Below are positions 31,124 through 48,077 of a stretch of DNA of 64,000 bases, one piece after another; the first letter of the stretch is position 1; the number at the start of each line of letters is the position of its first letter. Origin of the DNA: Gemmatimonadota bacterium (GTDB lineage Bacteria; Gemmatimonadota; Gemmatimonadetes; Gemmatimonadales; Gemmatimonadaceae); NCBI GenBank assembly GCA_027307165.1, contig DAHUXM010000014.1, positions 1 to 64,000 on the forward strand, written 5' to 3'. The notes under the pieces were generated by a model, which saw only the letters and a list, made by a program, of their open reading frames with translations, was not told the origin of the DNA and ran no database searches. Position numbers and translations under genes: made by a program.

Positions 31124-34100
31124 TCATATAATCATCTCGGTGATCGGCGGTAGCTCTCCAGGCGTAAATATCCACGGGGTGCGTCCACCGCTCGGTACGC
31201 CCCAAAGAGTTGGAGCGTTCCACCCGGGAGTTTTAGTCGGATCTATACAGCGGCCAACAGCAGCGCAAAACGAGTCCATTATTTGCTGGCCCGTATTTTT
31301 GATTGATTGAAGGGGTGATGAGTTGTTGCTGTCGCCATTCTGTGTACTGTCCGGCTTTGGCTTGTTCGGATCCACCACGAGCCCGATTGGATCATTCTCG
31401 GGGGGAAGGTTCTTTCCCTCTTGGTAACTCTCCGCTGGATCCCCATGACGGCCGCCAACCATATCCTGAGTTTGAGGAGGTCCGTCTTGTTTTACCTGGG
31501 GACGGCACCAATCGCCTATAAAGTTCAAAGGTATGATCGCAAGACAAACAGTGTGGCGCAGCCACCAAGGTGCTTCGCCACTTGGATCCCGACCATTGAC
31601 CGGATCATTTTTGGCAAACAAGTATGGATTGATGCCACCCTTAAGCCCTATTGGATCTTCACTGACGAACCGGCCTTGCACCGGATCGTACCAGCGCGCT
31701 CTCACCTGCGAGAGCCAAAGACGTGAGTCAACCGGCAGGCCCTTCCACGCGAGACGGTTGGTCGTATCCCCAGTCACCGTCTGTATGTCTCCCCAGTCGT
31801 CATAGGAGATCGTCTGTGCCACGTGCGTGGAGTCGTATACCGTGCCAGTGACGTTCCCCATGTCATCCAGCACGAAGTATTGAACTCCAGTCACCGCAGT
31901 GGCTCCGGTCAGGAGCGCATAGGGGTGATCGGTGCCAGCGTCATAGACATACTCGCCCTCTCTGTTCCCCAGCGAGTCCAAGTCGGCCAAGACATTGCCT
32001 CTGTCGTACAGCGTCACTCTAGCGATGTGATTATCGCTCCCCTTCCGCATCACCACGGGCTGGCCCAATGGATCGTAATCGAAGTTCTCCATTCCTCCCC
32101 AGTCAGAGCCACCCGAGAGGAGCCTATTGTCAGAACTCCAGTGATAGGACCAAATCACATCGTGCAGCGGCATGAAGCGTATTGTGACGTTGCCATCGGC
32201 GTCATACGCGTAATACAGCTCCATGCCCGAGTAGGTGACCACTCTCATCTGATCGCCCACGCCCAGCGTATCTCCCGGGTCGGCCCTGTTCCCGGCGGCG
32301 TCGTACCTGTACAGCTGTGGAGCGACCACGCTATCGATCGGGCAGTTCACCATGCCGTAATTGACATCGTATCGGTCGCGATTCTGGCTGCAGGCCCACG
32401 AATAACCGCTCGCATCGGTCGCACCCGCGTAACGTCCTAGCGCGTCGTAGGCAAAGACACGATTGGTTACGACAGTATCGGTACCAGTTTGCGCTCGGCT
32501 GTCTGCCCGTATTCGTCCGGCCGAATCTACGCGGTATGCGGCAGACAGGTACCCCGAGATGCCCGGGTTGTAGCTCTGTGTCACGTGCGACCCGGTGCTG
32601 AGGTACAGCCCGCTTCCACTGCCGCCAGTAGGCCATGCGGTTGAGACGCGTCTGCCAGGAGCGTCGTAGATGAAGTTGCCATGCCCGATATTGAGTCCTA
32701 GATCGATCGACTTGAGCGTACCGCTCGTGGAATCGCGCACGTAACGGCGTGTGACGAACTGCGCTGGCGCTCCATCGCTCGAAATCGTGGTCGAGTCGGT
32801 GCCTCCCGCATCAGCGCTGTGATAATGCACGACCGTGTACGTATGCCGCGTCACACCTTGTGCCAGCATGGTCGTCTGTACCGTATCAAGTACTGCGGTT
32901 GGCACTGATACTGTGCGCATCGAATCGGTCGTATTAGCAACAGTCCGGATCAGTCCGTTCGGCGAATATGTGAACCGATCTTCACTGGTACTGTCGCCCA
33001 TCTTGCTCAGCACTCGGCCCAGCGGATCGTATGTCAGGTCTATCCGTTGCCCACGCCTGTTGGTAGTGCTTGTGGGTCGGCTGTCCAAGTCGTACCTGGC
33101 CGTGGTTGCGAGGGTCGATGAAGCATAACCGAAGTGCCGTGTAGTTCTCCCCAAGGCATCGTATTCCGTGGAATCGACATGGCTCAACTGATCCCGCACC
33201 GATACCGGAAGTATTGCGTCGTACTTGATCCTGACCGGGTTCGCGCCAACGCTGTCGTACGAGGCCGTCACGCGGTTGAGAGAGTCGTACACCACGCGCG
33301 TCCTGGGAAATTGCGGCGCCTTGGTCGAAGTGTCGCGACCATAGGAGTCGAAATACGACTGTGTCATCCGGTTACCCGGATCTGTCTCGGTCGAGAGATT
33401 TCCGAAGTTTGAATCGTATTGATAGGTCACTAGTCCTGTGTCAGCACGAAACATGGTCGCCACGTTCTTTGTCACCGGATCGTACGTGAACTCGGTCGTG
33501 TCTCCAGCTACCGTACCGTAATGTGTCCTGAGTACACGGCCCAAACTGTCGAGAGTGTTGCTAACGCTTACGACTCCGCTACCGGAAACGCCCTGCAACT
33601 GGCTTCTCGCACCATAAATATACGACGCCATTTGCTGGCCAGCTGCGCGCTGGGTGAGTAACAATCCGTTGCTCAGGTTATATGTTGCCGAGTCTGCGCT
33701 TCCGTCGGGGTGCGTCACTACGGTTGGCAGAAAGCCCTGCCGCGTGATCGTCGTAACGTTGCCGAGCGCGTCGACGGTCTTGAGCGGCTCGCCCCATCGA
33801 TCGGGATATATCGTTGATACGTAGCCCTTTGGATCTGTAACGCGAGCGGCGATTGTATCAGCATCAAGTAACGGAGCATGGTTACTTGCCGTAGCAACGG
33901 TCGGTACACCCACAGCCTGCCAAGCTGCGATGTTGGTGGTCGGCGTACCCGTCGTAGTTGACCCGCCTCCGGCGTCGATTGGTACTAGGGGACTTACGAT
34001 CCGTGACAGCTTCCACGTCAGGTCATAGTCGTACGTCGTCGTGTTGCCGCGCCGGTCGGTGATCGTACTGAGCCGACCCGATCCGTCATAGCCGTAACTA

Positions 34101-37100
34101 TCGTATCCGCCATCCGGGTCGGTGACTCGCGTCAGATGTCCAGTGGTCGGATCGACCGTCACGCTGGTTGTGCGCCCGCCAGTACCGCCGGTCTCTGTGA
34201 TTGACTGAAGGTGGTGATTGGCATCGTATGACAACACGAGATACGGTGCCGATGCCGAGCTGCCACTCGATCGCATTGGCTCGATGATGTTCGTCACCTG
34301 CAAGCTGTCCAGACCACCGTAGTTGAACGTCGTCTTTCTTCCCAGCCTATCGATCGCGGCCAGCATGCGACCACCGCCGTCAAACAGCACCTTGCTGCTA
34401 TCCTGGTACGTCCTGATCCAGGTTGCGACGCTGTCGAAGTGGAGGGTACTGAAGTCTGCCGCCATAGCGCCATTACTAGCGAAGTATGTTGCCGACCCGT
34501 CCCCGTTTTCGATCATGTAGCCACCGCTGGGTGAGCCTGAGCCTTCCGGAGTCGGCCAGAAGTGCTGCAGACCGGCAATCGTCCAACCCTTGGCAATCGG
34601 TGAAGATTGCGTGTTGAGTGTCGAATTGACAATCATGAGTTGCGTCTTCACTGGTGTCACATCGCTCATGCCGTTGGCGTAATGAGCCGTCACAACCAGT
34701 GTCACGGAGTCGATTCCCGTCCCATAGCTGGACATGTCGAGCTGGCCAGCCAGTCTATAGGTCGTGGCAGGACTGCTCGTGCCGGCGAATGTGAGTACCG
34801 AATCTCCGTTGGTGAAGAGGAGGTGGGCACCGAGCCGCTTCACCTCCAGCGTGTAGCTCTGGATGTTGGCTGGAGCCGAAGGTACGGAAACGTCGGCGTA
34901 GATGAATGGCCTCGGGAAGGCGCGGTCTCCGTTATAGGCAAGCGTCACGCTCCGCGGAGTGTTCAGCGTGTAGTACGGAACCGTACTCCGGCTCGCAGTC
35001 ATTGCGAAGCACGACGCTGCACACAGGCTCATGTCCTGATCGTCGTTGTTCATGAATGCCGTCGACACGTGAACGGCGTTCGGCGAATGAACGTTCACGG
35101 CAACGGCTGCGGAGTCGGAATATGTTCCGCCGTCATTTGCCACTACGTGAAGCATGACGGTGCCAGAGGAATAGTCCCTGCCGCCGCCGGTAAACCGTAC
35201 TGTCACAGTTTTCTGCTGTGACGGCAGGAGCGATATCGGCGTCGATGGCTGCTGGCAAGCTGTAGCCGCAGTGCCATCGCACGAGGCGGATACGGAATAA
35301 GACATCGAATCCAGTCCGATGTTCTTGACCGTGAACGTCGCTGTATCGAGGACGCCTGATGCAACTGTATCGGGTGAGCCAACAGTGGCGATCTGCACCA
35401 TGTAGCTCTTGATCCGGACCAGAATGGAATCCGTAGCGGTGCCAGCAAGGTTGCTGACTGTTGCCACGACCGAGCCTGTGGCATTGGGAGCGCCTGAGGT
35501 CGTATATGAAGCTGAAAGGCTCGTATCTCCCTTGGCGCCTACGCCAATTGTTCCGGAGCTCGGCGTGCACGACGCCGCGTTGTAGCAAGCAATGTTCCAC
35601 GAGTAGTTCTCAGCCACGGCGTTCGGATTGTGAATCATGAACGAGTGCGTCTCGGACGCACCGTTGAATTCCACGACAGACGGTGTCGTCGTGGTGATCG
35701 ACGCTGGAAGCTGGGTTATGACAATCGTCGCCGGACCGGACGTACTATCAGTGCCTTCGGTAGCGACTAGAGTCATCGTGGACGATGTCCCAGCGTCGCC
35801 GGCGTTGAAACGCACCTGGACCGTGACACTCGCTCCAGCTGCAACCGTGTCGGGTGCCGGCGTGACGACCGCACAGCTTGCCGGAATCGCAGCCTCGCCA
35901 ACATCATCCACGCACGAGACAGTGTAGCTGTAAGTGGCGCGGGAGCTTCCGTTGTTCGTCACTGTGAACGACTGAATCAGGCCAACGCCGCCCTCATTGA
36001 ATCCTCCCGGCGGTATGCCTTGAGCCGTGACCGACGGTGCGACCCAGGGATAGTATGTGAGCGTCTTGATGCCGGTGTTAGTCCAGGTACTGTAGGATGC
36101 GGTAAGGGAGACCGTATCAGTCGGAGCAGACGTTGAAGCCTCCCATCGAACTGGAACCAACGCTTCTTCCTGAGGCAGAAGATCCACGTGACTCTGCATG
36201 GAATTAGCCAGGGCACAGGTCGGTATGTTCGGACTGCAGTGGGGAGCCACGCTGTAGTTTGCTTCAGTGTTACCCTGGTTCCTGACGGTAAACGTGTCGA
36301 CTACCAATTGTCCGATTACGAGCGGTCCAGATTCGCTCAACGGCACCACCCCGGGCGTGTAATCAGGAGCGGGAGGCACCGTCACCGAGAAGGTATACTG
36401 ACCGGTGTACGGATTATTCCAGTCATCGGTGTAGAGCGCCGTGAGCTTGACCGTCCCCGCACCACCCGCTGTGCCACTGCTGGCGGTTGCCACCACGCTC
36501 GCCGTCGCCGGGCTACCGGGCGAGATGCCAACCGATCCTGGGCTCGGGGTCGTGCTACAGCTCAACGTGCCAGTGCACGTTGCCGTGAGCCCGTAGGTAA
36601 CCGTGCTGGTATTGTTCCCAGTAGCCGTGATGGTGAAGCCGTATGTGGCACTTCCGCCAGGTTCCGGCGGTGTTGGCGCTCCCTGTTCTGCTACGCCAAC
36701 GTCTTCCGACATTGGCACGATCGTACCACTTGCACTGTTCGTCTCAGCGTACGGGGATGTGGCGGTCAGCGTCGCCGTTGCATTTCCGCTGCTCGCGGGG
36801 TTTGTCGTGAAATGGACCTCAGCCGTGATAGTTCCGTTGGGTGCCACCGATCCTGTGGGAGAGGCGACCGAGCACGTATCCGCGACGACGTTGCTACAGA
36901 TTGCGGTGAGATTGTAGGTGGCCGCGGTATTGCCGGTGTTCTTGATCGTGAAGTATGGGAAGCCCGTGCTCACGTTCTGCTGCGTCCACTCGGTCGGCTG
37001 GGTTGTGGTGACCGATGGCTGCGCACTCGGCAGCGTCACCGTAACGGAGCCGTCGACATAGTTGGCAGAGGGCCAGTTTGCCGTGAGCATTATGGTGCCC

Positions 37101-37498
37101 GAACCTGTGGCTGCCGTATGAAACGTCACAGTCACAGGAACGCTGCCTCCGTAAGGAACTGATGCGCTCGATGGCGACAGGGAGCAGTTGCTGACCGCTC
37201 CCGCACACGAGCTGATGCTGAACGTCGCCGTGGTATTCGCTGTGCCCGTATTCTCGACATAGAACACGTAGGTCTGCGAGGTACTGTTGCCGACGGCCGT
37301 GGTGCTCCCGTTCACCGGACTCACGTCGAGTATCGCATTGCCGCCTATCATCGGCATTGCACCTGGCTTCGTGCCCTGGGCGTGCGACAGTGCCGGAGTG
37401 AGTGTCGAACACAACGCGACGGCCGAGAGACAGATCCCGACTGCCGGGCGAAGCAGGATGAGAGCAATGCGAGAATCCGATCTCGGATAATTACTCAT
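31124..37498 (-). CDS. Giant exported Rhs-repeat protein with seven N-terminal Ig-like domains
   Basis: A protein of 2,124 residues. A signal peptide (about 1-40, cleavage near LSHAQG) is followed by seven tandem beta-sandwich repeats of about 100 residues (about 55-780). Each repeat has a conserved Cys pair (e.g. ATCTGTLSC, PHCSPNIPTC, IACYNAASC) and N-T-G-x-(T/N)-A-x-Y-type strands. A linker domain leads into YD-type Rhs repeats (about 1030-1970; e.g. YDALGRTTRHFGY, YDAAGNRADPGDT) and the Rhs-core end VRARWYDPVQGRFVSEDPIG to DPVNGRDPSG. The 150-residue tip (coding 31124-31576) is Pro/Asn-rich with one hydrophobic stretch and no recognised toxin fold. Rhs cores form shells around C-terminal tips. 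The neighbouring T2SS operon and the sigma-54 control region suggest T2SS export, which is an inference. Confidence 0.9.
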   Translation of the reverse strand: MSNYPRSDSRIALILLRPAVGICLSAVALCSTLTPALSHAQGTKPGAMPMIGGNAILDVSPVNGSTTAVGNSTSQTYVFYVENTGTANTTATFSISSCAGAVSNCSLSPSSASVPYGGSVPVTVTFHTAATGSGTIMLTANWPSANYVDGSVTVTLPSAQPSVTTTQPTEWTQQNVSTGFPYFTIKNTGNTAATYNLTAICSNVVADTCSVASPTGSVAPNGTITAEVHFTTNPASSGNATATLTATSPYAETNSASGTIVPMSEDVGVAEQGAPTPPEPGGSATYGFTITATGNNTSTVTYGLTATCTGTLSCSTTPSPGSVGISPGSPATASVVATASSGTAGGAGTVKLTALYTDDWNNPYTGQYTFSVTVPPAPDYTPGVVPLSESGPLVIGQLVVDTFTVRNQGNTEANYSVAPHCSPNIPTCALANSMQSHVDLLPQEEALVPVRWEASTSAPTDTVSLTASYSTWTNTGIKTLTYYPWVAPSVTAQGIPPGGFNEGGVGLIQSFTVTNNGSSRATYSYTVSCVDDVGEAAIPASCAVVTPAPDTVAAGASVTVQVRFNAGDAGTSSTMTLVATEGTDSTSGPATIVITQLPASITTTTPSVVEFNGASETHSFMIHNPNAVAENYSWNIACYNAASCTPSSGTIGVGAKGDTSLSASYTTSGAPNATGSVVATVSNLAGTATDSILVRIKSYMVQIATVGSPDTVASGVLDTATFTVKNIGLDSMSYSVSASCDGTAATACQQPSTPISLLPSQQKTVTVRFTGGGRDYSSGTVMLHVVANDGGTYSDSAAVAVNVHSPNAVHVSTAFMNNDDQDMSLCAASCFAMTASRSTVPYYTLNTPRSVTLAYNGDRAFPRPFIYADVSVPSAPANIQSYTLEVKRLGAHLLFTNGDSVLTFAGTSSPATTYRLAGQLDMSSYGTGIDSVTLVVTAHYANGMSDVTPVKTQLMIVNSTLNTQSSPIAKGWTIAGLQHFWPTPEGSGSPSGGYMIENGDGSATYFASNGAMAADFSTLHFDSVATWIRTYQDSSKVLFDGGGRMLAAIDRLGRKTTFNYGGLDSLQVTNIIEPMRSSGSSASAPYLVLSYDANHHLQSITETGGTGGRTTSVTVDPTTGHLTRVTDPDGGYDSYGYDGSGRLSTITDRRGNTTTYDYDLTWKLSRIVSPLVPIDAGGGSTTTGTPTTNIAAWQAVGVPTVATASNHAPLLDADTIAARVTDPKGYVSTIYPDRWGEPLKTVDALGNVTTITRQGFLPTVVTHPDGSADSATYNLSNGLLLTQRAAGQQMASYIYGARSQLQGVSGSGVVSVSNTLDSLGRVLRTHYGTVAGDTTEFTYDPVTKNVATMFRADTGLVTYQYDSNFGNLSTETDPGNRMTQSYFDSYGRDTSTKAPQFPRTRVVYDSLNRVTASYDSVGANPVRIKYDAILPVSVRDQLSHVDSTEYDALGRTTRHFGYASSTLATTARYDLDSRPTSTTNRRGQRIDLTYDPLGRVLSKMGDSTSEDRFTYSPNGLIRTVANTTDSMRTVSVPTAVLDTVQTTMLAQGVTRHTYTVVHYHSADAGGTDSTTISSDGAPAQFVTRRYVRDSTSGTLKSIDLGLNIGHGNFIYDAPGRRVSTAWPTGGSGSGLYLSTGSHVTQSYNPGISGYLSAAYRVDSAGRIRADSRAQTGTDTVVTNRVFAYDALGRYAGATDASGYSWACSQNRDRYDVNYGMVNCPIDSVVAPQLYRYDAAGNRADPGDTLGVGDQMRVVTYSGMELYYAYDADGNVTIRFMPLHDVIWSYHWSSDNRLLSGGSDWGGMENFDYDPLGQPVVMRKGSDNHIARVTLYDRGNVLADLDSLGNREGEYVYDAGTDHPYALLTGATAVTGVQYFVLDDMGNVTGTVYDSTHVAQTISYDDWGDIQTVTGDTTNRLAWKGLPVDSRLWLSQVRARWYDPVQGRFVSEDPIGLKGGINPYLFAKNDPVNGRDPSGEAPWWLRHTVCLAIIPLNFIGDWCRPQVKQDGPPQTQDMVGGRHGDPAESYQEGKNLPPENDPIGLVVDPNKPKPDSTQNGDSNNSSPLQSIKNTGQQIMDSFCAAVGRCIDPTKTPGWNAPTLWGVPSGGRTPWIFTPGELPPITEMII

Positions 37499-37643
37499 GA
37501 CGATGCGAGGGCGTGAGAGGGGATGAGTCGACCGAGCAGCCAGAAGGCGGGGATACTTCTCACCGGTGTAGACGCAATCCGGTGACGCACGAGAGGCGTC
37601 CTGGGAGATGGCGGCGACGATGGCAGCATGACTGGCGGCATAG

Positions 37644-37658
37644 GCACGCCGAGTGCCA
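37644..37658 (-). promoter_or_regulatory. Sigma-54 (-24/-12) promoter of the rhs gene
   Basis: The minus strand reads TGGCACTCGGCGTGC, matching TGGCAC-N5-TTGC with the invariant GG (-24) and GC (-12) at the required 12-bp spacing. Predicted start near 37632, giving a leader of about 134 nt. It lies downstream (in transcription order) of an enhancer-like array and of a gene for a sigma-54 activator. Confidence 0.8.
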
Positions 37659-37668
37659 TTTCAACACA

Positions 37669-37703
37669 AACGCTAAGTCGCGTTACCTCAACGACTTAGC
37701 GTT
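37669..37703. promoter_or_regulatory. 12-bp inverted repeat between enhancer array and rhs promoter
   Basis: AACGCTAAGTCG (37669-37680) and exact reverse complement (37692-37703), 11-nt spacer. It covers about -38 to -72 relative to the predicted rhs start, between the sigma-54 promoter and the TGTCGC array, where a repressor or a DNA-bending protein would act. Confidence 0.7.
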
Positions 37704-37715
37704 CACTCACCTTCC

Positions 37716-37774
37716 GGTTGTCGCATTTTGTCGCGCGACAGTCGCACCTTGTCGCGCGACAAAATGCGACAACC
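37716..37774. promoter_or_regulatory. Enhancer-like array of TGTCGC half-sites (bEBP binding site candidate)
   Basis: A perfect 25-bp inverted repeat with a 9-nt centre. Within it are two complete TGTCGCGCGACA palindromes (37729-37740 and 37750-37761), whose centres are 21 bp apart (two DNA turns), plus two outer TGTCGC half-sites. The array centre is about 113 bp upstream of the predicted rhs start, the usual distance for a sigma-54 enhancer. It begins 14 bp after the activator gene's stop codon, so a role as transcript hairpin is also possible, but no T-run follows. Confidence 0.75.
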
Positions 37775-37787
37775 ACTCGTTCCTACA

Positions 37788-38807
37788 TCACGACCGGATC
37801 ACTCGCGTATGCTCCTCGGACTCGCCCAACTCCTCCACCGCAGACACTGGCACACGACTCAACCCACGCGGAGCGCCTGACAGTCCCAACCTCTGCATGC
37901 GTCGATAAACTGTCGAGCGATCGACTCCTAGCGCTCGCGCAACGACATTCACGTTGCCTTGATAGGCAGCGAGCAATTCAAGGAACTTGCGCCGGTCGTT
38001 TTCCAGTTGCGATTCCAGTCCCACGGCTCCGCCACGCCCCCACGCAAGAACCTGCGTCACGTGCATTTCGCCTATGGTATTTCCGTTCGCGAGAAACGCC
38101 GCATGTTCGATCGCCTGCCGGAGTTCACGAACGTTGCCAGGCCAACTGTAGGCCTCGAGGCGTCGAAGCGCAGTCGGCGTGAAGCTTATCTCGCCCGTGT
38201 TTGACGAGCCGGCAATCATCCGTGCAAAGTGCGCTGTCAACGGAGCGATATCCTCTGGATGATCGCGAAGCGCCGGAACTGTTATGACGATTCCCCGCAA
38301 ACGGAATAGCAGATCCGTGCGGAATCGCCCGTCGCCTGAAGCCACCAGAAGATTGACGTTGGTAGCTGTAACGAGGCGGAAGTCCACCTTCTCGGTCACA
38401 TCCGATCCGACAGCCGAAACCTCGTATGCATCGAGCACCCGCAGCATCTTGGCTTGTACCAGCGGAGACAGCTCGCCAATCTCGTCGATAAATGCTGTGC
38501 CATGATTGGCACTGCGCAACAGGCCGGCACGATCGCGTACCGCTCCGCTGAACGCTCCACGCACGTGGCCGAGCACTTCGGTCTCGAACAACGATTCCGG
38601 TATCGCCGCGGCGTTGAAGCTCACAAACCGACCTCGCCGTCCACTCTCGACATGCAACCCGTGAGCAACCAATTCCTTCCCGGCGCCGGTTGGACCCTGA
38701 ATCAACACCGGCGCCGAGTGCGGGGCCGCCCGGCGGACTGTCTCACGCAGATTTCGGGCGACGGCTGACGTACCAATGATCAGCTCATTCACGCTGGTAT
38801 GTGTCAT
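37788..38807 (-). CDS. Sigma-54-dependent transcriptional activator (bEBP) without receiver domain
   Basis: A protein of 339 residues. It has only the AAA+ core and a Fis-type DNA-binding end: Walker A QGPTGAGKE (38-44), the sigma-54 contact loop as GAFSGA (84-89; consensus GAFTGA), Walker B TAFIDEIGEL (Asp108-Glu109), the arginine-finger region FRTDLLFRLRG, and a C-terminal helix-turn-helix NVNVVARALGVDRSTVYRRM. With no N-terminal regulatory domain it may be constitutively competent or controlled by partners, like PspF. Its start overlaps the gspD stop by 4 bp, so it belongs to the T2SS operon. It presumably binds the TGTCGC array just downstream of its own gene. Confidence 0.92.
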   Translation of the reverse strand: MTHTSVNELIIGTSAVARNLRETVRRAAPHSAPVLIQGPTGAGKELVAHGLHVESGRRGRFVSFNAAAIPESLFETEVLGHVRGAFSGAVRDRAGLLRSANHGTAFIDEIGELSPLVQAKMLRVLDAYEVSAVGSDVTEKVDFRLVTATNVNLLVASGDGRFRTDLLFRLRGIVITVPALRDHPEDIAPLTAHFARMIAGSSNTGEISFTPTALRRLEAYSWPGNVRELRQAIEHAAFLANGNTIGEMHVTQVLAWGRGGAVGLESQLENDRRKFLELLAAYQGNVNVVARALGVDRSTVYRRMQRLGLSGAPRGLSRVPVSAVEELGESEEHTRVIRS

Positions 38808-40324
38808 TTGTTCTGGTCTCCGGCTCGCTTCTGCAAAGGCTTGGTTAGTTGGTCCGCATCATCGTCAGTCCGAATCACGTGCGGCGTGATGAAAAGGAAC
38901 AGCTCCGTTTCGGATGTAGAGCGCTTGACATGGCCGAACAGCGCACCGAGAATCGGAATGCTGGACAGAATGGGAACGCCTCCCTGTGTCGATTCGTGTT
39001 GTCGATCCGTCAGACCACCGATTACTACGGTCTGGCCATCTTTGAGAAGAAGCTGCGTCTGAACGGATCTGGTAGAGATGACCGGCGCATCGAATTGCGT
39101 CTGGTCCGTCGCTGCGCTTACCTCCTGGCTCACTTGCAACGTGACATATCCGTCCGACGAAATAGTGGGACGCACCGACAATTTCGTTCCAACATCCTTG
39201 TACTGGACTACCTGATCCCGTGATGCCCCATCGGTGGGGAGCGAACGCGATATCTCGACGAACGGCTGCTGACTGCCAACGAGGATCTGGGCTTCCTCGT
39301 TGTTGGCGGCTATCACTGTCGGTCGCGACACGATGGTCACCTCTCCCTTGGAGGCCGCGGCGCGAACGGTAGCTTCGAGATCAGGATCGCCTCCGATGCC
39401 TACCACGTGAAGGCTCGCATCTCCGGCAGCTATACCTGTGGAGTAGCCATCATAGGTCGTGCGCGGATGACCTGGTATGCGAGCGGCGGGAAGATTGACA
39501 TCGACTCCTAACTCGAGTGATCGATCGCGACTGACCTCCACAACCAGGACTTCGATCAGCGCCTGCAGTGGTCGTACATCGAGCTCCTTAACCGCCGCTG
39601 CGATCAACGCGAAGTCACTGGGATTCGCCCTGATCAGGAGCGCATTCGTAGATGCATCGGGGACGATCGTGGTCTCCCCTGATAGTGTTGCAGAGCCTTG
39701 AGTGACTGCACCACTCAGCAGACCAGACGGAGCAGCGGTAGCAGGCGGCCCCGTCATGGCATTGAAACTGGACTGGCGCTGCTGCGAGAGCTGCTGAGAA
39801 AGAGTTGAGGACTTGCTTCCTATCTCGCCAAATGCGCTGGCTCTTCCGTACAGGGAATTCACAGTTGCGGCCACATCGGCTGCGCGCGCATGACTCAAGC
39901 GTATGACGTATAACCGCGCATCGCCACCGGGTGGCGCTCTCGCGGATGCAGCGTTGGGTTCGGGTAAGGAGGGCGGCTTTTGCCTGATTTGATACGGGCC
40001 ACCGGAGTCAGCGACGAGCTCGAGATTCTCACCCCGGAGCGTCGCTTTGAGAAGCGGCAGCACTTCCGCGACACGAATCGCGTGCGGAGTCTGTAGTGTG
40101 ACCTTGCTGTTACCGATCGGTCCGAATACGACCGGGCGATCCAGGTACTGTCCCAGGGCCTGAATGGCCGTCCGGACATCGACGTCGATGAGATGGATCG
40201 ACACGGTGTCCGGCAGCGCCGTTTTGGCCTGGGCGAAAAGTCTTAACGGCGTAAGTGTACATATCCCCACAACAGCCAGAACTGCGACAACAGCAGCACG
40301 ACAGCGTTGGTCGAATCCGTTCAT
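38804..40324 (-). CDS. gspD: Type II secretion outer-membrane secretin GspD
   Basis: A protein of 506 residues from ATG at 40324. Signal peptide ends PLRLFAQA. The N0 domain (VSIHLIDVDVRTAIQALGQYLDRPVVF) and one N1-type domain (RLYVIRLSHARAADVAATVNSLYG) are followed by the secretin barrel: EVLVVEVSRDRSLELGVDV, GEVTIVSRPTVIAANNEEAQILVGSQQPF, LLLKDGQTVVIGGLTDRQ, and VPILSSIPILGALFGHVKR near the end. It forms the outer-membrane channel. It is shorter than Proteobacterial GspD (about 650), with fewer N domains. Start shares one base with the gspC-like stop. Confidence 0.93.
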   Translation of the reverse strand: MNGFDQRCRAAVVAVLAVVGICTLTPLRLFAQAKTALPDTVSIHLIDVDVRTAIQALGQYLDRPVVFGPIGNSKVTLQTPHAIRVAEVLPLLKATLRGENLELVADSGGPYQIRQKPPSLPEPNAASARAPPGGDARLYVIRLSHARAADVAATVNSLYGRASAFGEIGSKSSTLSQQLSQQRQSSFNAMTGPPATAAPSGLLSGAVTQGSATLSGETTIVPDASTNALLIRANPSDFALIAAAVKELDVRPLQALIEVLVVEVSRDRSLELGVDVNLPAARIPGHPRTTYDGYSTGIAAGDASLHVVGIGGDPDLEATVRAAASKGEVTIVSRPTVIAANNEEAQILVGSQQPFVEISRSLPTDGASRDQVVQYKDVGTKLSVRPTISSDGYVTLQVSQEVSAATDQTQFDAPVISTRSVQTQLLLKDGQTVVIGGLTDRQHESTQGGVPILSSIPILGALFGHVKRSTSETELFLFITPHVIRTDDDADQLTKPLQKRAGDQNK

Positions 40325-40827
40325 CAAACTCCCGCCTTTGCTAGAGTTACGGTCCACGTCGAATCTCTCACGCGTACTGTGACGCCATCCTTGTTGACGC
40401 TGCGGATTGCAACGGTCCCAAGCGTGTCGCCAGACGACACCACGATCGTACCATCACGACCCGGGATACCGGAAATGATTGCGCGCCATGGAGGACCACC
40501 AATGGTTCCATGTAGCACGATGCGTACGATTGGCGCAGCAGGTACCGGTGGCGCAGGAACACCGCTTGCTGCGATCGCGAATGCCACCATCGCTGGTTTA
40601 CGATCCACACGAAAGGGATCGTGCGTGACGATGTGACTGGATGCGCTATCCAATGAATCGCTATCGAATGCTGCCATTCTTGGGATCGCACCGGAGCCGA
40701 GTAAACGGCCGCTCGCGCTTGCGGCTGCAATGTCGTCCCTATGTGCGAGCATGACCTCTCGGCCCATCAAACCGAGAACCGACACTGTGCAGGCCCAGAG
40801 GCCGCGCTCCAATTGCCGGCGATTCAT
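40324..40827 (-). CDS. GspC/PilP-like inner-membrane clamp protein
   Basis: A protein of 167 residues. An N-terminal hydrophobic segment (about 8-22) is followed by a flexible Ala/Pro-rich linker (about 85-100). A C-terminal beta domain (100-167) reads IVLHGTIGGPPWRAIISG...TIVVSSGDTLGTVAIRSVNKDGVTVRV. That is the homology-region fold of GspC/PilP, which links the inner-membrane platform to the secretin. The position directly before gspD is where gspC-type genes occur in many operons. Sequence support is mostly structural pattern plus position, hence no symbol. Confidence 0.7.
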   Translation of the reverse strand: MNRRQLERGLWACTVSVLGLMGREVMLAHRDDIAAASASGRLLGSGAIPRMAAFDSDSLDSASSHIVTHDPFRVDRKPAMVAFAIAASGVPAPPVPAAPIVRIVLHGTIGGPPWRAIISGIPGRDGTIVVSSGDTLGTVAIRSVNKDGVTVRVRDSTWTVTLAKAGV

Positions 40828-41462
40828 TGCCCGACCTTATCGTCTGGAGAATCTGGAACGCGTCTGTATAGGCCACGCACAGTCAATTCGATGTGGAGAG
40901 CTTCCATACGATCGGCGGGAGCGGCAGGATCGGATTGCGCTATAGTAAGCTGGCGAATTTCGGTGAGTGGCTCCCCGCCTTCCAGATCACGCAACATTCC
41001 GGAGACGCCCCGTACATCTCCTGTTCCGCTCGCGTGAACAACCACGGGCACGAGCAGAGTGCGATTGGCGGAGTCCGCCTCGGGCTGAATCGACGACAGA
41101 TGAACCCCGTTCGCATCCGCTGCGTCGGCCACTACCGACGCAAGGGCCGCGGCTGCCTGGCTGGCCGAGCTTCCATTCAGAAATGCGGACGACAAGCCGA
41201 GGAATTGCGTAGTCGTCTCGTCGAGCGATTTGAGAGTGCTGTTGCGACGAGAAATGATCTGCCTGTCCTGAGCCAGTTCGGCGTGAATCAACCGCAACTG
41301 CGTCTCGGTCGTACGGCGCGCAGCAATCACTCGTGGAATGACCTTTCCAACGAGCAGCATGGTCCCGACACAAACTACGCCTATCAAGAGCGTGCGTACG
41401 TCTTTGGAGAGGGGATTCGTCCGCACCGTAGAGCCAGACACGATACTGCCGCCAGTATTCAT
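40824..41462 (-). CDS. gspM: GspM/PilO-like inner-membrane platform protein
   Basis: A protein of 212 residues. A short cytoplasmic N-terminus and a transmembrane helix (about 23-46, VRTLLIGVVCVGTMLLVGKVIP) lead to a coiled coil and a ferredoxin-like periplasmic domain (VHLSSIQPEADSANRTLLVPVVVHASGTGDVRGVSGMLRDLEGGEPL), the GspM type-b/PilO layout. It dimerises with the GspL-like protein. Overlaps its neighbours by 4 bp at both ends. Confidence 0.78.
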   Translation of the reverse strand: MNTGGSIVSGSTVRTNPLSKDVRTLLIGVVCVGTMLLVGKVIPRVIAARRTTETQLRLIHAELAQDRQIISRRNSTLKSLDETTTQFLGLSSAFLNGSSASQAAAALASVVADAADANGVHLSSIQPEADSANRTLLVPVVVHASGTGDVRGVSGMLRDLEGGEPLTEIRQLTIAQSDPAAPADRMEALHIELTVRGLYRRVPDSPDDKVGQ

Positions 41463-42649
41463 TGACTTGTGTCCCGTTGTGGTTCAAACGCAGTTTTGGC
41501 GTGACCATAGTCAGGCAGCATGTGCAGGCGAAGCGTCGCTCTTTCCAGCTCGCGCGCGCCAACCATCTCTCGGCTGACAGGTCCGATTATCGTGGGAGCA
41601 ACGATATTTGCTACCTCACTCATCGCATCCACGACCGCCGCTGTACGTGGGGACAGCACCACCAGATCGACGTTGGCAGTGTCGATACGCATCGTCGTAA
41701 CGGTCGCTTCTGCAGGCAGTGCCTGAGTTATCGCGCCAAGGAGGAGTGCAGTCGATACACGATGCCGCGAGAAGTTCGCAGCGCTGGCGAGATCGCGACT
41801 GATGCGTCCTAGTTCCGCTTTTTCGTGCGATCCACTATCGCTCAACATCTGCATACTGCGTAGCTCAGTTCTGTTACGCGCTAGCCGTGCACCGTCGACG
41901 TAACCTTGAGCCGCGAAATAGGTGCCGATTGCGATGAGAAGTATTGCCGTAGCGGCGACAATCCTGGTGCGCGACACATCTGGTATCGTTATCGCTGGAT
42001 TGTCCTTTGCACATAGCGCCAGCTGTCGCGGTACATGCCCCATTGCGACTTGCACGGCAATTGCTTCACCGGCCGTGCGCATACCCGTGCTGCCAACCTC
42101 ATCAGCTGCCAGCGCGGAAAGGACGCCTGGATCGATCGATTCCGCCGGCACAAGCGGCCCAGCACGCAGATTGTGGTCGCATATCGCGCCAGTAATCGCG
42201 CCGATCACGCCAACTTCGGCGACGCCGACGTGATACTGCCCAGCAGAAACCGCGCTTGCGCCGGTGATGACGACTGGTCGCGGCGACGCAACGAAACGAC
42301 TCGTGTTCAGCCGAAGCATTGCGATGACTTCCTTTCGATGACGAACCGATGGAATACCCTTCACGAGCTTCACACGGCTCCATGGAGTTCCGATCGCAGT
42401 ATCCACGCGTAACTTCGGCCACCTGTATTTCGGAATACCATCGAGCAATTCACCAAGGGCTGCTGCGATCGGAGCGCTGTCGCCCGAGGTGCGATCCGCG
42501 TCGAGTTGAGCTGTGGCAGACCATACAACCTCACCATGCTCGACGACAATAACGTTGATCACATTGTGGTCCAGATACACGCCGGCGCGTCTCACGATAC
42601 AATCACGGCCAGATCTTCGCACGTGTAATACCGGCCCTGCGGCCGGCAC
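41459..42649 (-). CDS. gspL: GspL/PilM-PilN-like cytoplasmic-membrane protein
   Basis: A protein of 396 residues; the start is uncertain, and a GTG at 42592 is possible. Residues about 20-215 have an actin-like (PilM/GspL cytoplasmic) pattern, GVYLDHNVINVIVVEHGEVV and VGVAEVGVIGAITGAI. They are followed by a transmembrane helix (about 232-250, RIVAATAILLIAIGTYFAAQG), then a PilN-like periplasmic domain with coiled coil and VSTALLLGAITQALPAEATVTTMRID. In T2SS, GspL anchors the ATPase GspE to the membrane. Overlaps gspK by up to 47 bp with the long start. Confidence 0.78.
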   Translation of the reverse strand: MPAAGPVLHVRRSGRDCIVRRAGVYLDHNVINVIVVEHGEVVWSATAQLDADRTSGDSAPIAAALGELLDGIPKYRWPKLRVDTAIGTPWSRVKLVKGIPSVRHRKEVIAMLRLNTSRFVASPRPVVITGASAVSAGQYHVGVAEVGVIGAITGAICDHNLRAGPLVPAESIDPGVLSALAADEVGSTGMRTAGEAIAVQVAMGHVPRQLALCAKDNPAITIPDVSRTRIVAATAILLIAIGTYFAAQGYVDGARLARNRTELRSMQMLSDSGSHEKAELGRISRDLASAANFSRHRVSTALLLGAITQALPAEATVTTMRIDTANVDLVVLSPRTAAVVDAMSEVANIVAPTIIGPVSREMVGARELERATLRLHMLPDYGHAKTAFEPQRDTSQ

Positions 42650-43538
42650 GAACCAACCGCAACTCCTCGACGACCGTTACCGGCGGTGTTCCTGCAGTTG
42701 ACGTCAGCCGGACTATCCACGCATCCGGCTCGCTAGCGATCAGGTTCGCCAGCTCCTGGAATGCCGACTCGAGCTTCGTGCGAGAGTCAGCACTCAGATA
42801 CGGCTCCAGAGTCCGGATGTCGGTTATCGGCTCTTTTCTCCAGCGCATCTCGGCGATACGAGCAATCGATTCAGCAGTCATCCCCGGTAGCGACGCTATC
42901 ACCGGGATTGGGGCGCGATCCAGGACGATCTTGCCCGGCTCGACACCGAGAAGCGCGATGAGCGAATCGGCTGACTCGAAACCGCGAACGAGACGTATTT
43001 CATTCTCGTCGTCAAACTGGTGATTGAATGGTGGCAATCGCCCCGCACGCCGGTACCAGCCAATTTCAGCGCCACTCGGTCGTGGTATGGAGTCAGCATC
43101 ACGCCAGTCGGCTATTGCATCGGCGAGGCTGTCCGCCCGATCCGTACCGACGCCGGCAGCGACGAATGTCGCGCTGATGGCGTCAGTATTCGCTTCGTTC
43201 ACATCGAGACGATCTCCCGCAGCCCGCGCGCTGATGGCGCAGCCAAGCTGCTCTCCCTGGACGTCGGCAAATGTGCGATCGAGCGTGTCCCACGCCGCGC
43301 TGGCTGCTACGAGTGTATCGCCAAGCGCGGCATCCGTCACGGCACGTGCGACCTCGCCACAGCCCTCGGCGTGCCACGTTGCACGGATGATGTTCATGCG
43401 ATTCTGAGCAGTCGCCAGCGAATCCTGCGTCGTTGCCGTGTCATCCAGCCCAATGGCTGCCATCGCCACTATCAGCCACAGAATTACGATGAGTGCGAAA
43501 CCACGCCGCTCACTCGAGATCCTGCCTGATGATCTCAT
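42603..43538 (-). CDS. gspK: Type II secretion minor pseudopilin GspK
   Basis: A protein of 311 residues from ATG at 43538, overlapping the gspJ stop by 4 bp. The prepilin motif is ERRGFALIVILWLIVAMAAIG: Gly at -1, but no Glu at +5, as is characteristic of GspK. The large periplasmic domain has LDVNEANTDAISATFVAAGV, DWRDADSIPRPSGAEIGWYRRAGRLPPFN and a SAM-like helical region (ASLPGMTAESIARIAEMR), as in GspK (about 310-330 residues). It caps the pseudopilus tip with GspI and GspJ. Confidence 0.9.
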   Translation of the reverse strand: MRSSGRISSERRGFALIVILWLIVAMAAIGLDDTATTQDSLATAQNRMNIIRATWHAEGCGEVARAVTDAALGDTLVAASAAWDTLDRTFADVQGEQLGCAISARAAGDRLDVNEANTDAISATFVAAGVGTDRADSLADAIADWRDADSIPRPSGAEIGWYRRAGRLPPFNHQFDDENEIRLVRGFESADSLIALLGVEPGKIVLDRAPIPVIASLPGMTAESIARIAEMRWRKEPITDIRTLEPYLSADSRTKLESAFQELANLIASEPDAWIVRLTSTAGTPPVTVVEELRLVRAGRRAGITRAKIWP

Positions 43539-44092
43539 CCGCGCGCTCCGACACGGTAGACTACCGTGTCGGATCGGCTGACAACGCCGATCGCGATCGG
43601 TACTGTGGGCCCGATCGGCCAACTGTTCACCCAATGTCCACCATTATTGGCGTCCATCAGATATCGCAGAGCTATGGTACTTCCGCGTAACCTGACACGA
43701 GCCGAATCGCCGGACGAGCTCTCAGCCTGAAGTGCTACGCCGCTCGAATCCAATACCGCACGAAGTGAGATGCCACACTCGCATTCCCAGCCTCCGGCCG
43801 AAATGCACCACGACGTGAAGCGCATCTGCGCACTATCTCCACCGAAGTTGCTCGACTCATGTGTCGGCCCGGCTTCAGGAGATATGTCGATTTGTCTTAC
43901 CCATCTCTGTACCAACGCTCCGGCATTTTGCGTATCGTCTCGCGCCAACGCTGAAGATGCGTCCTTGTCCCTGGAATCGGCTAACTGCTCGAATACCATA
44001 TCCGCAGAGAGGAGCAACGTGGCTGCTATCATTACCGCGACTAGGATCTCGAGTAGTGTGAAGCCGGTGTGTAAAGGACTAGTTCGTGACAT
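43535..44092 (-). CDS. gspJ: Type II secretion minor pseudopilin GspJ
   Basis: A protein of 185 residues from ATG at 44092. Canonical type III signal: SPLHTGFTLLEILVAVMIAATLLL (Gly -1, Phe +1, Glu +5). The rest is a beta-rich globular domain with a Cys trio (SWCISAGGWECECG) that could form a disulfide. Length and place between gspI and gspK fit GspJ, part of the tip complex. Confidence 0.88.
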   Translation of the reverse strand: MSRTSPLHTGFTLLEILVAVMIAATLLLSADMVFEQLADSRDKDASSALARDDTQNAGALVQRWVRQIDISPEAGPTHESSNFGGDSAQMRFTSWCISAGGWECECGISLRAVLDSSGVALQAESSSGDSARVRLRGSTIALRYLMDANNGGHWVNSWPIGPTVPIAIGVVSRSDTVVYRVGARG

Positions 44093-44453: not shown

Positions 44454-44763
44454 CGATAGTCCCTGTAGATACCGCGACCCGATCGATGTTTGGCGGATCG
44501 GAGATGACGCGGCCATCTGGTAGGGCCGTAACGAGTATCACGCCTGCCGAATCACTCAACGTGGCTGTTTGGGAACTGCCTGAGTGAATCGCTGAGCTCC
44601 GGAGAGCTTTTATGCGGGTGTGGACGGACGCTACCGTTGCATCTTTGCGTTTCTGGCCAGCGAGCGACAGTGATGTAATCGCGAGCACGACACCTATTAT
44701 CACTATCGTCACTATCAATTCGATCAGCGTTACGCCGGTGCGATGCGAGCTGGTGCGAGTCAT
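44443..44763 (-). CDS. gspH: Type II secretion pseudopilin GspH
   Basis: A protein of 106 residues. Signal: SHRTGVTLIELIVTIVIIGVVLA (Gly -1, Val +1, Glu +5). A helix and small beta domain follow. Somewhat shorter than most GspH (about 150-170), so the globular part is reduced. Start shares one base with the gspF stop. GspH/FimT family by motif and order. Confidence 0.82.
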   Translation of the reverse strand: MTRTSSHRTGVTLIELIVTIVIIGVVLAITSLSLAGQKRKDATVASVHTRIKALRSSAIHSGSSQTATLSDSAGVILVTALPDGRVISDPPNIDRVAVSTGTIDVR

Positions 44764-45977
44764 CAGCGCACCGGATGTATGGCGTATACGGCCTGCAACA
44801 GGGCGCCGGATACGACGGCGACAATTACGCCGAACGTTAGAATGAGGATTGGCTCGACGAGCCGTACAGCGGCGCGCGTCAATTCGCGCGCACGTTCACT
44901 CTCGATCCTCGCAGCGTGGATACACAGGGTTGCAACTCGCCCGGACTCTTCCCCCGCGCGGATGAGTCGTATCGCAGCAACGGTGAGCGCCGACGACTGC
45001 TCCAATGCCAATCCGATCGATTCTCCGCGCGTCACTCCCGCACGGGCGACGGCGAGTCTCGATTCGATAGCCGGATCCCCTGCCGCGGTAGCAGCGCGAC
45101 GCAGAGCGGTTGCCGCCGGAACACCAGAGTCGAGCAATGCCGCCATGGCTGTGCAGACGCGCGATGTCGCAGCCGCTCTCCGAACTGACCCCACGCCTGG
45201 CAACCTCAGCAGCAGGTTACTCCAGGCTACGCTGCCGTTTGCACTGCCTGTCCAGATGCGCCAGCCGACGAATCCGAGGATCAGGATAATTGCAGCAAGG
45301 ACTGAGTTATGCTGCATGGCTGCTGTTGCCTGCAGCACAAATCGCGTCAGTGGTGGTGGCTGCTGGCCCGTATCCGCCAGCATCACAGCGAAGCGTGGCA
45401 ACACGACGCCGACAAGCAGCGCGACGGAGCATGCGCCTGCAACCAGAAGAATTGCGGGATAAACTAGAGCCCCACGGATCGCGGATTTCAGCGAAGCAGT
45501 CTCTTCCGCCAACTCGGCGCTTCTCAGCACGGCTGGCGCAAGATCGCCCGAAGATTCACCGGCGGAAATGATACCGGCAAGAACTGGCGGCAGTCCCGCA
45601 TCGTCCCTCAGTCCATCCGCGAGGCGTCCACCCGTTCTGACACGCTCTCGAATCGCGGTACATGCCGGAGCCCATGAGTCGGGCGCAAGCTTCTCGAATG
45701 TCGCAAGCGTCCGCGACATCGGAATGTCGGCAGCGAGGAGGTTGGCAAGTACACGCAACCCGGGCGCGACGTCCGACCCGCGGGGCATGCTACGGCTTGC
45801 GACAAAACGCGCAGTCGCGATTTCGATTGGGAAGAGACCTTGCGAATGGAGTGCATCCACTGCAGCGCCTTTGTCGGCGGCCAGTATCGTTCCGCGCAGC
45901 ATCGTACCGTCGTTGCGCGCGGCCCGATACCTGAAGGGACGAGCACTGCCGTGGTTATCCGGGGAATCGTCACTCAT
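44763..45977 (-). CDS. gspF: Type II secretion inner-membrane protein GspF
   Basis: A protein of 404 residues from ATG at 45977, overlapping the gspG stop by 4 bp. Two GspF domains are visible, each a helical bundle before a transmembrane segment: LRVLANLLAADIPMSRTLATFEKL...IISAGESSGDLAPAVLRSAEL, then TM VYPAILLVAGACSVALLVGVVLPRF, TM SVLAAIILILGFVGW, and the second bundle CTAMAALLDSGVPAATALRRAA...RLIRAGEESGRVATL with final TM. It is the platform protein that couples ATPase movement to pseudopilus growth. Full length. Confidence 0.95.
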   Translation of the reverse strand: MSDDSPDNHGSARPFRYRAARNDGTMLRGTILAADKGAAVDALHSQGLFPIEIATARFVASRSMPRGSDVAPGLRVLANLLAADIPMSRTLATFEKLAPDSWAPACTAIRERVRTGGRLADGLRDDAGLPPVLAGIISAGESSGDLAPAVLRSAELAEETASLKSAIRGALVYPAILLVAGACSVALLVGVVLPRFAVMLADTGQQPPPLTRFVLQATAAMQHNSVLAAIILILGFVGWRIWTGSANGSVAWSNLLLRLPGVGSVRRAAATSRVCTAMAALLDSGVPAATALRRAATAAGDPAIESRLAVARAGVTRGESIGLALEQSSALTVAAIRLIRAGEESGRVATLCIHAARIESERARELTRAAVRLVEPILILTFGVIVAVVSGALLQAVYAIHPVR

Positions 45978-46516
45978 TGGTGCACCGGGCCGCCCCACGA
46001 GGTGACGTCCGCATCTTCATCATCACCGCCGGGTTTGCCGTCCTTGCCGAGTGTGTACAGGTCGAATCCTCCCTGATTCCCCACACCAGGGAAGGTGTAC
46101 ACGTAGGGCCGGCGCCACGGATCCAGGGGTATGTCACGCGTCAGATATGGACCGCGCCAGTTGGGTGGCGCATCGGCTCCTGTCGGCGCGACGCGTAGCG
46201 CAATCAGCCCCTGCGCTTGCGACGGATAGTCCCCGTTATCGAGCCGGTAGGAATTGAGAGCAAGCGAGAGAATTTCTATCTGGCTCTGCGCCGCACTGGT
46301 CTTTGCGTCACCGAGGTTGCGGAAGATGGACGGTGCAACGATCGCTGCCAGTGTCGCGATGATTGCAATAACTACGAGCAGCTCCATCAACGTGAACGCG
46401 CGGCGATCATGCCTGCGACTGATGGAGGGGATATGTCTGGAAGCGCAGGACTGTGCAACGTCGGCGCGATGCGTATTCCGAATCAACAGTAAGCCTGTAG
46501 CGAGCACATTATGCAT
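45974..46516 (-). CDS. gspG: Type II secretion major pseudopilin GspG
   Basis: A protein of 180 residues, start overlapping the gspE stop by 8 bp. The prepilin motif is HDRRAFTLMELLVVIAIIATLAAIVAP: Phe +1 and Glu +5 are normal, but the -1 residue is Ala instead of Gly, and the leader is about 40 residues, longer than usual. The GspG C-terminus is clear: YRLDNGDYPSQAQGLIAL, NWRGPYLTRDIPLDPWRRPY, GGFDLYTLGKDGKPGGDDEDADV with the calcium-binding-type Asp cluster. Confidence 0.95.
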   Translation of the reverse strand: MHNVLATGLLLIRNTHRADVAQSCASRHIPSISRRHDRRAFTLMELLVVIAIIATLAAIVAPSIFRNLGDAKTSAAQSQIEILSLALNSYRLDNGDYPSQAQGLIALRVAPTGADAPPNWRGPYLTRDIPLDPWRRPYVYTFPGVGNQGGFDLYTLGKDGKPGGDDEDADVTSWGGPVHQ

Positions 46517-48077
46517 TGCAGACCCTCAGCACTTCATCAACGGTAGTAATCCCGGCAGCGGCCTTCGCGATGCCATCGGCAATCATCGGACGATATCCGC
46601 GTCCGTCGGCGAGTGACTCGAGCTCGACTCTGGACGCTCCCTTTGAAATGGCAGTTCGCAGCGATTCGTCCATGGAAACCATCTCGAAGATGCCTATTCT
46701 CCCCCGGAAGCCGGTGCCGCGACATGCCGCGCAGCCGTTGCTGCGTACGAATTCGCGAGACGATATTTCAGGCGCAACGCGTTCCTGAATGGCCACGATT
46801 TCGCTTCGTGGCTTTTCGGCTGTCTTGCACTGCGGGCAAGCAATACGGACGAGTCGCTGTGCCATGACCGCGGTCAACGTCGCAGCGACGAGGTACGGCG
46901 CCACGCCGAGATCGAAGAGTCTTGGCAATGCACCGACAGCGTCGTTCGTATGAAGCGTGGAGAAGACCAGGTGGCCAGTCATCGAGGCCTGAATGGCAAT
47001 CTCCGCCGTTTCCGTATCGCGCATCTCGCCGATCATTACTACGTCGGGATCCTGGCGGAGGATGGAGCGGAGCGCGGACGCAAAGGTCACGCCAGCCTGC
47101 CTGTGAACGGGGACCTGAGTAACTCCATCCAGCTGATACTCGACGGGATCCTCGACCGTGACAATCTTCTCGGATTGGATGTCACGTCGGCGCAGAGCAC
47201 TGTAGAGCGTCGTAGTCTTTCCGCTTCCCGTCGGCCCTGTGACGAGCACCATGCCGTGAGGGCGATCGATCGCTGCAATCATGTCATGCAGAATCGAGCG
47301 TGGCATCCCGAGTGCTGTGAGATCCACTGGCCGGCTGCCACGATCGAGGAGACGCAGTACGACGCTCTCTCCGTAAACGGTTGGGACGGTAGATACTCTG
47401 AGATACAGTTCCGTATCTTCCACGCGTACGCGGATTCGTCCATCCTGGGGACGACGACGCTCGGAGATATCAAGATCCGCCAGAAGCTTGAGCCGAGAGA
47501 CAACTGCCTCATGCAACCGTCGAGGTGGCTCTATGGTTGGAGCGAGCACACCGTCAACGCGTACTCGCGCCGTCGCTCCTCCGCGCGTGGATTCAATGTG
47601 GACATCGCTGGCACCAGCCTCGTACGCGTCGTGCAGCAGCGTGTTGACGTACCTGATGACTGGCGGCTGATTGGCAATCTCACGCACGTCCGCGGTTCCT
47701 TCATCGCTGCCAGACGTCACGTCAGAACCATCACCGGCATGCGCGGTGGCGCGTTCGATCATCCGCTCGAGATCATCGTCGTTGGTATCGCGCGTGACGA
47801 TAATGCGCCCGTAGATATCGCTGAGCTCCGGTATCGCCTCCAGGAACGCACCGGGCGCGACCGCCACGATCAACTTGCCATCGTCGCCCAGTTTATCTGG
47901 ACACACACGATGATGCAGCAAATACTCTCGACTCACGCCAGTAACAGCGAACGACTCCACAGCAACTTCGGAAACCGATAGCACGGGTAGCCTCGCAGAA
48001 CGTATTCGCAATCGAGCAATGCGCAGAGAGCATTTACGATTTGGACTACAACGTATGTATCCCCGCCTGCCAAGCAA
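46509..48077 (-). CDS. gspE: Type II secretion ATPase GspE
   Basis: A protein of 522 residues with a TTG start at 48077; the first roughly 30 basic residues may not be translated. An N-terminal N1-type domain (about 35-110) leads to the ATPase: VRVDGVLAP region, Walker A VTGPTGSGKTTTLYSAL (281-289), Asp box VEDPVEYQLDGVTQVPVH, Walker B DPDVVMIGEMRDTETAEIA, and His box TGHLVFSTLHTNDA. A zinc site CPQC...CAAC with FRGRIGIFEM follows. It powers pseudopilus assembly and is first gene of the operon; a sigma-54 promoter match lies 34-48 bp upstream. Confidence 0.95.
   Translation of the reverse strand: MLGRRGYIRCSPNRKCSLRIARLRIRSARLPVLSVSEVAVESFAVTGVSREYLLHHRVCPDKLGDDGKLIVAVAPGAFLEAIPELSDIYGRIIVTRDTNDDDLERMIERATAHAGDGSDVTSGSDEGTADVREIANQPPVIRYVNTLLHDAYEAGASDVHIESTRGGATARVRVDGVLAPTIEPPRRLHEAVVSRLKLLADLDISERRRPQDGRIRVRVEDTELYLRVSTVPTVYGESVVLRLLDRGSRPVDLTALGMPRSILHDMIAAIDRPHGMVLVTGPTGSGKTTTLYSALRRRDIQSEKIVTVEDPVEYQLDGVTQVPVHRQAGVTFASALRSILRQDPDVVMIGEMRDTETAEIAIQASMTGHLVFSTLHTNDAVGALPRLFDLGVAPYLVAATLTAVMAQRLVRIACPQCKTAEKPRSEIVAIQERVAPEISSREFVRSNGCAACRGTGFRGRIGIFEMVSMDESLRTAISKGASRVELESLADGRGYRPMIADGIAKAAAGITTVDEVLRVCNA

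Follow-up and report, generated by a model that had tools for sequence, protein, structure and literature searches.

A probable sigma-54 switch linking a giant RHS exoprotein gene to a type II secretion operon in a Gemmatimonadota bacterium

Bacterial enhancer-binding proteins (bEBPs) such as PspF and HrpR/HrpS have no N-terminal regulatory domain (PMC7057263). They consist of an AAA+ domain and a helix-turn-helix (HTH) only and activate sigma-54 transcription from an upstream enhancer by DNA looping, a device of activator, enhancer and sigma-54 promoter that is textbook (PspF, HrpRS; PMC7057263). Enhancer-binding proteins (EBPs) can also be linked genetically to secretion genes or have a promoter located past their own gene, and Desulfovibrio vulgaris offers both cases: DVUA0100 is encoded in an operon for type III secretion, and the gene for DVU0569 is followed by a sigma-54 promoter (PMC4641369). 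In Xanthomonas perforans, the secreted YD-repeat protein Bcn-A loses its activity in a type II secretion system (T2SS) mutant, xpsD (PMC7259588). Here, we analyze a 64,000-nucleotide stretch of contig DAHUXM010000014.1 from a Gemmatimonadota bacterium (the window), in which a bEBP gene at the end of a T2SS operon is followed by a half-site array, a candidate sigma-54 promoter and a very large RHS-repeat gene, rhs. These elements most likely form a self-contained sigma-54 switch by which synthesis of the giant RHS exoprotein is tied to T2SS expression, the exporter probably turning on its own cargo.

The window activator likewise has only AAA+ and HTH domains; it differs from PspF and HrpR/HrpS in being the last gene of a T2SS operon with a single predicted RHS target, and no PspA or HrpV-like inhibitor was identified for it. 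With the D. vulgaris proteins it shares a one-component EBP tied to a secretion system, or a promoter downstream of its own gene; it differs in that the system is a T2SS, that one large exoprotein gene lies adjacent and that the half-site varies between copies. The likeness to Bcn-A is a YD-repeat (Rhs-like) protein with a T2SS link, whereas export of the window protein is a prediction. We found no description of the T2SS-activator-RHS cassette, its changing half-sites or the dyad described below in the open literature searched, outside which most subscription papers lie; for the presumed phylum no account of the combination turned up, partial precedents came only from elsewhere, and a motif search gave no relevant paper among those listed. 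On the minus strand, the order is gspE (from 48077), gspD (ending at 38804), activator, array, dyad, promoter box and rhs, with the array starting 14 nt past the activator stop. The principal features are as follows.

37788..38807, minus strand: bEBP activator gene, 339 amino acids; AAA+ domain (GAFSGA loop) and Fis-type HTH; its start lies 4 nt inside the end of gspD
37716..37774, no strand assigned: putative enhancer array, 59 bp; 25-bp perfect inverted repeat with seven GTCGC/GCGAC half-sites
37675..37697, minus strand: accessory dyad AAGTCGTTG-AGGTA-ACGCGACTT, 23 bp; 15/18 to the consensus AAGTCGTTG-N5-CAACGACTT
37643..37658, minus strand: -24/-12 sigma-54 promoter box TGGCACTCGGCGTGCC; predicted start near 37632; the box recurs in relatives
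31124..37498, minus strand: rhs, predicted target, 2,124 amino acids; N-terminal signal-like stretch, Ig-like domains, RHS/YD repeats and Rhs-associated core

A preliminary description of this DNA had proposed a 25-bp perfect inverted repeat about 113 bp upstream of the predicted start, holding two palindromes 21 bp apart and further half-sites, and each of these elements was recovered. The two 25-nt arms (37716-37740 and 37750-37774) are 100% complementary, the palindrome TGTCGCGCGACA occupies 37729-37740 and 37750-37761, and the half-sites begin at 37720, 37730, 37741 and 37751 (GTCGC) and at 37735, 37756 and 37766 (GCGAC), with spacings that lie close to whole numbers of helical half-turns. 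The array centre lies 113 bp upstream of the predicted +1, and the array has the form of an upstream activating sequence, with inverted half-sites repeated ~100-150 bp upstream of the promoter. Seven half-sites fall within 52 bp of the array (p<0.001 when dinucleotides are shuffled), and the richest unrelated segment of that length in the window holds three. The genome-wide scan proposed in the preliminary description found this to be the sole such cluster in the 3.7-Mb genome, and the predicted regulon is therefore one gene, rhs alone. Four other exact TGTCGCGCGACA 12-mers occur singly inside coding stretches and look like chance, looser half-site pairs across the whole genome were scattered with none clustered, and no array was seen before the T2SS operon. 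The very strong repeat at 37738-37755 (RNA fold z -9.5) makes assembly or cloning artefacts nearby likely.

The promoter box carries GG at -24 and GC at -12 with 10 bp between them, which is the sigma-54 spacing, and runs from 37658 to 37643 on the minus strand, as the preliminary description had read it. By itself the match is modest: it ranks fifth in the window over both strands (p=0.0075 for a 250-bp region), and it is only its recurrence in relatives, described below, that makes it convincing as a predicted promoter. A search of the region for a sigma-70-like promoter found none, and rpoN is encoded in the genome (PF04552, E 5.8e-64, at G000:C25; here and below, G-numbers denote genomes, C-numbers contigs and L-numbers loci, and G000 is the window's own genome). 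The predicted rhs leader is ~134 nt long, ending at the start codon at 37498.

The neighboring gene had been taken to encode a bEBP with a Fis-type DNA-binding end, and domain searches agree. Its AAA+ domain (Sigma54_activat) is intact, with Walker motifs GPTGAGKE and FIDEIG and the loop GAFSGA, a variant among those expected to keep function (PMC4641369), and the C terminus carries a Fis-type HTH (PF02954, E 3.4e-6). Nothing precedes the AAA+ domain, so there is no N-terminal regulatory or sensory domain. The score against the NCBIfam pspF equivalog is 212 bits, below the cut-off of 443.55; judged from its domains, the activator would work like PspF without being a PspF.

We searched 179 genomes of one bacterial family, plus a sample of the class, with a profile of activators of this kind. 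The profile set apart a group of ~24 in the family, whereas nothing in the class sample outside the family scored like this group, the two top outsiders scoring as ordinary activators do. Almost all of the ~24 follow gspD within a T2SS operon. Among loci whose contig extends further on that strand, eight (L064, L069, L126, L132, L134, L136, L137 and L139; the link is weak in L137) have a gene for a large RHS-repeat or RHS-homologous protein next in line, and the L132 protein carries a Tox-REase-7 tip. The usual layout in relatives with sequence beyond the activator is an activator gene, an array of varying half-sites, a sigma-54 box ~80-100 bp on and an RHS gene. The boxes found after the activator stop were as follows.

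L064: -24/-12 box TGGCATCGGTTGTGCC
L069: -24/-12 box CGGCGCGCGCGTTGCT
L126: -24/-12 box CGGCACTCCGCCTGCT
L131: -24/-12 box TGGCACTCGCAGTGCT
L132: -24/-12 box CGGCATCCCGTATGCT
L136: -24/-12 box GGGCACACTCGATGCT
L137: -24/-12 box GGGCACGGGGAGTGCC
L139: -24/-12 box TGGCCCGCCTTGTGCC

Such boxes are enriched in the ten loci whose regions were fixed beforehand (Fisher p 2e-8); the value for 13 loci includes regions placed after inspection and is to be discounted. Array and box are kept letter for letter in G002, whose activator is near-identical. In G001, whose activator is 59% identical, ATTGTCGCGCGACATTATGCGACAATGCGCGACAATACGCGACAAT stands just past the activator gene, with the same half-site in another arrangement at 10-bp steps, and the contig ends inside this array. 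G003, an 89%-complete assembly, has no activator ortholog, yet an array with the box CGGCACTCAGCGTGCG (L095, about 13052; G003:C301:21051) precedes a short open reading frame (ORF) with a signal-peptide-like beginning, next to a gene resembling those of extracytoplasmic function (ECF) sigma factors; this is probably the remnant of a lost cassette. At least four T2SS-activator cassettes are found in G024, on C71, C32, C24 and C58 (L064, L065, L133 and L134), and they differ in recognition helix and downstream repeats.

The array half-site is GCGAC in the window, L063, L139 and G003, GCGAA in L126, L131 and L135, and GAGAC in L140, each reaching p 0.01 or better against shuffles, with steps clustering at 5-6, 10, 16 and 20-21 bp; the half-site of the window also occurs in G001, G003 and G102. 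Repeats of L069, L133, L064 and L132 were not significant in the same shuffle test. The recognition helix reads RST in the activators with GCGAC (window, L063, L139) and RAT or RAS in those with GCGAA (L126, L131, L135), and array similarity tracks helix class (permutation p 0.0006; 0.017 once the same-genus copy is removed), p-values that are indicative since the classes were chosen after most arrays had been seen. A tree of the AAA+ domain, poorly resolved, groups the window with L063 and then with L065 and L064. The window and L139 are distant in this tree and share RST and GCGAC all the same, which points to the linked activator as the protein that would bind the array. Half-sites thus appear to change partly in step with the recognition helix of the activator. 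A three-residue recognition code had fitted cleanly before L140 was examined; tried on the promoters of L135 and L140 ahead of their reading, it predicted the first correctly but failed for the second, and was dropped.

Several observations weigh against a sigma-54 switch of this kind. The -12 element of the window box reads GTGC instead of the preferred TTGC, and no fitting -24/-12 box follows the activator stop in L134. No array stands out statistically in L064, L132 or L137, and none is visible in L136. Loci L066-L068, L070, L071, L127-L130 and L138 are without a clear downstream target, in some because of a contig end. L140 violates the relation between helix and half-site, and the independent cassette copies are few.

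Three rival explanations were weighed. The inverted repeat might act as RNA, as a 3' hairpin that terminates, protects or attenuates the T2SS-activator transcript; its closeness to the activator stop fits this, and the window copy folds at -50.4 kcal/mol (z -9.5). However, the strong fold does not carry over to relatives (z -0.5 in L139 and -1.5 in L063 and L126), the region has no T-run terminator, and the Rfam hits, all to hairpin families, fell short of the curated cut-offs. Moreover, in L135 and L140 rhs is convergent to the T2SS-activator operon; array and box, at the distal end of rhs, are separated from the activator by kilobases. Since they stay with the convergent rhs, the array belongs to the rhs promoter and not to the activator 3' end. 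We therefore regard a role in RNA as very unlikely and read the array as an enhancer, not a 3' hairpin.

That the array is bound by another regulator, such as a repressor or a different bEBP, while the linked activator acts elsewhere, is a reading we consider unlikely. Linkage is not binding, ten or more further complete sigma-54 activator domains are encoded in the genome, and L140 breaks the match of helix and half-site; nevertheless, the half-site varies roughly with the recognition helix of the linked activator, no further array for this activator exists in the genome, and activator and sigma-54 box are constantly linked to the array. It is scarcely credible that the array is instead a dispersed or mobile repeat, with a chance -24/-12 match and an rhs gene independent of sigma-54. 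The repeat is indeed long and perfect, the G001 and G002 contigs break nearby, and G003 has an array away from any activator ortholog, but there is a single cluster in the genome, boxes are enriched across copies, the G003 array again has its box at the same distance, and the region yielded no sigma-70-like promoter.

For the sigma-54 switch, activator binding, activation, the start site, a looping factor and export of the RHS protein by the T2SS can be inferred from the layout as follows. Transcription of the T2SS operon would run into its last gene, that of an activator which, like PspF and HrpS, has no sensory domain. The activator would bind the half-site array through its Fis-type HTH and assemble as a hexamer. 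DNA looping, perhaps helped by a factor on the AAGTC...GACTT dyad, would then bring it to sigma-54 RNA polymerase at 37658-37643, which it would remodel to start rhs transcription. In this order of events the exporter would be made first, and its last gene would then turn on the likely cargo. The preliminary description had held that everything needed for enhancer-driven transcription is present; every part it predicted was found, in a layout kept in relatives. It was silent on the upstream T2SS operon and on the second conserved dyad at 37675-37697.

This dyad has the family consensus AAGTCRTTG-N5-CAAYGACTT, a 9-5-9 palindrome. When loci are aligned on the -24 box, AAGT...ACTT falls at an equal offset in the window, L131, L135 and L132, and more weakly in G003. 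A family-wide search at this spacing also returned matches before unrelated genes. With gaps of 11-23 nt to the box allowed, 35 of 59 lie at 17 or 18, as do 17 of 21 when a good dyad interior is required. Because hits in related genomes are not independent of one another, the binomial values overstate this excess. The motif AGTCNTTG-N5-CAAYNACTT gave 46 rows versus 5 for a reversed control, some palindromic sites being doubled. For some copies the distance to a following -24/-12 box is 6, 17 or 27 nt, and many copies have no box. We read the dyad as a candidate factor site that may assist or tune some sigma-54 promoters from one helix face. A strict sigma-54 element was rejected for the dyad, which also occurs without a -24/-12 box, for example beside a YicC-like gene. 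Integration host factor (IHF) was likewise rejected as the dyad factor: some copies fit the IHF consensus, among them TATCAAATACTTA of G115, but the window copy does not. IHF sites lie between enhancer and sigma-54 promoter (PMC7057263), and the dyad occupies the same interval, differing in its 9-5-9 palindromic consensus.

Elsewhere, the dyad recurs family-wide, for example in L214, L215, L217, L270 and L225, and precedes ECF sigma factor genes in L270 and L225. The window's own genome has a second dyad promoter at G000:C7:215681-215703 (L276, about 4682), comprising TGTAACGCTACGTTACA, the dyad and, 6 nt on, TGGCCCGCCGGTTGCT. It precedes an operon that holds, besides a lipoprotein-like gene and one other, the gene for a 324-amino-acid sigma-54 activator, a layout repeated in G001 (L278).

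The activator is the last gene, directly after gspD, of a complete T2SS operon with secretin, ATPase, GspF, pseudopilins, GspK and GspM. GspD, GspE and GspF score below their equivalog cut-offs and were assigned through Pfam domains and gene order. The operon genes, all on the minus strand, are listed below.

38804..40357, minus strand: gspD, secretin
40324..40827, minus strand: small gene outside known families, also present in relatives as a conserved gene
40824..41462, minus strand: gspM-like (T2SSM_b)
41459..42649, minus strand: gene in the gspL position, no family match, conserved in relatives
42603..43634, minus strand: gspK-like (T2SSK)
43535-44110, 44079-44516 and 44443-44763, minus strand: three pseudopilin-type genes (N_methyl, two below the curated cut-off)
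44763..45998, minus strand: gspF
45974..46516, minus strand: gspG, major pseudopilin
46509..48077, minus strand: gspE, ATPase, first operon gene

The rhs product matches the RHS/YD repeat (PF05593) and, above cut-off, the Rhs-associated core (TIGR03696), and its linkage together with the Bcn-A precedent makes it a likely T2SS cargo. Directly past rhs, a 212-amino-acid ORF (30416-31054, minus strand) has no family match and may be an immunity or accessory gene. In G002, rhs diverges from that of the window ~600 bp from the array, near a contig end (L062 1-80, G002:C21), through either an insertion or an assembly join.

Collectively, these observations suggest how production of a giant secreted RHS protein could be timed in a simple way: the secretion operon itself would make the activator of the cargo gene. 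Related activators with different half-sites form a natural series in which the recognition code of Fis-type DNA-binding domains is directly testable, and the dyad hints at a factor acting between enhancer and sigma-54 promoter. We suggest, tentatively, that the family may hold many such cassettes with private activators, helix and half-site changing together so that copies stay insulated, and that the phased dyad may be bound by a general factor not yet described. The presence of at least four such activators in G024 raises the question of their mutual specificity.
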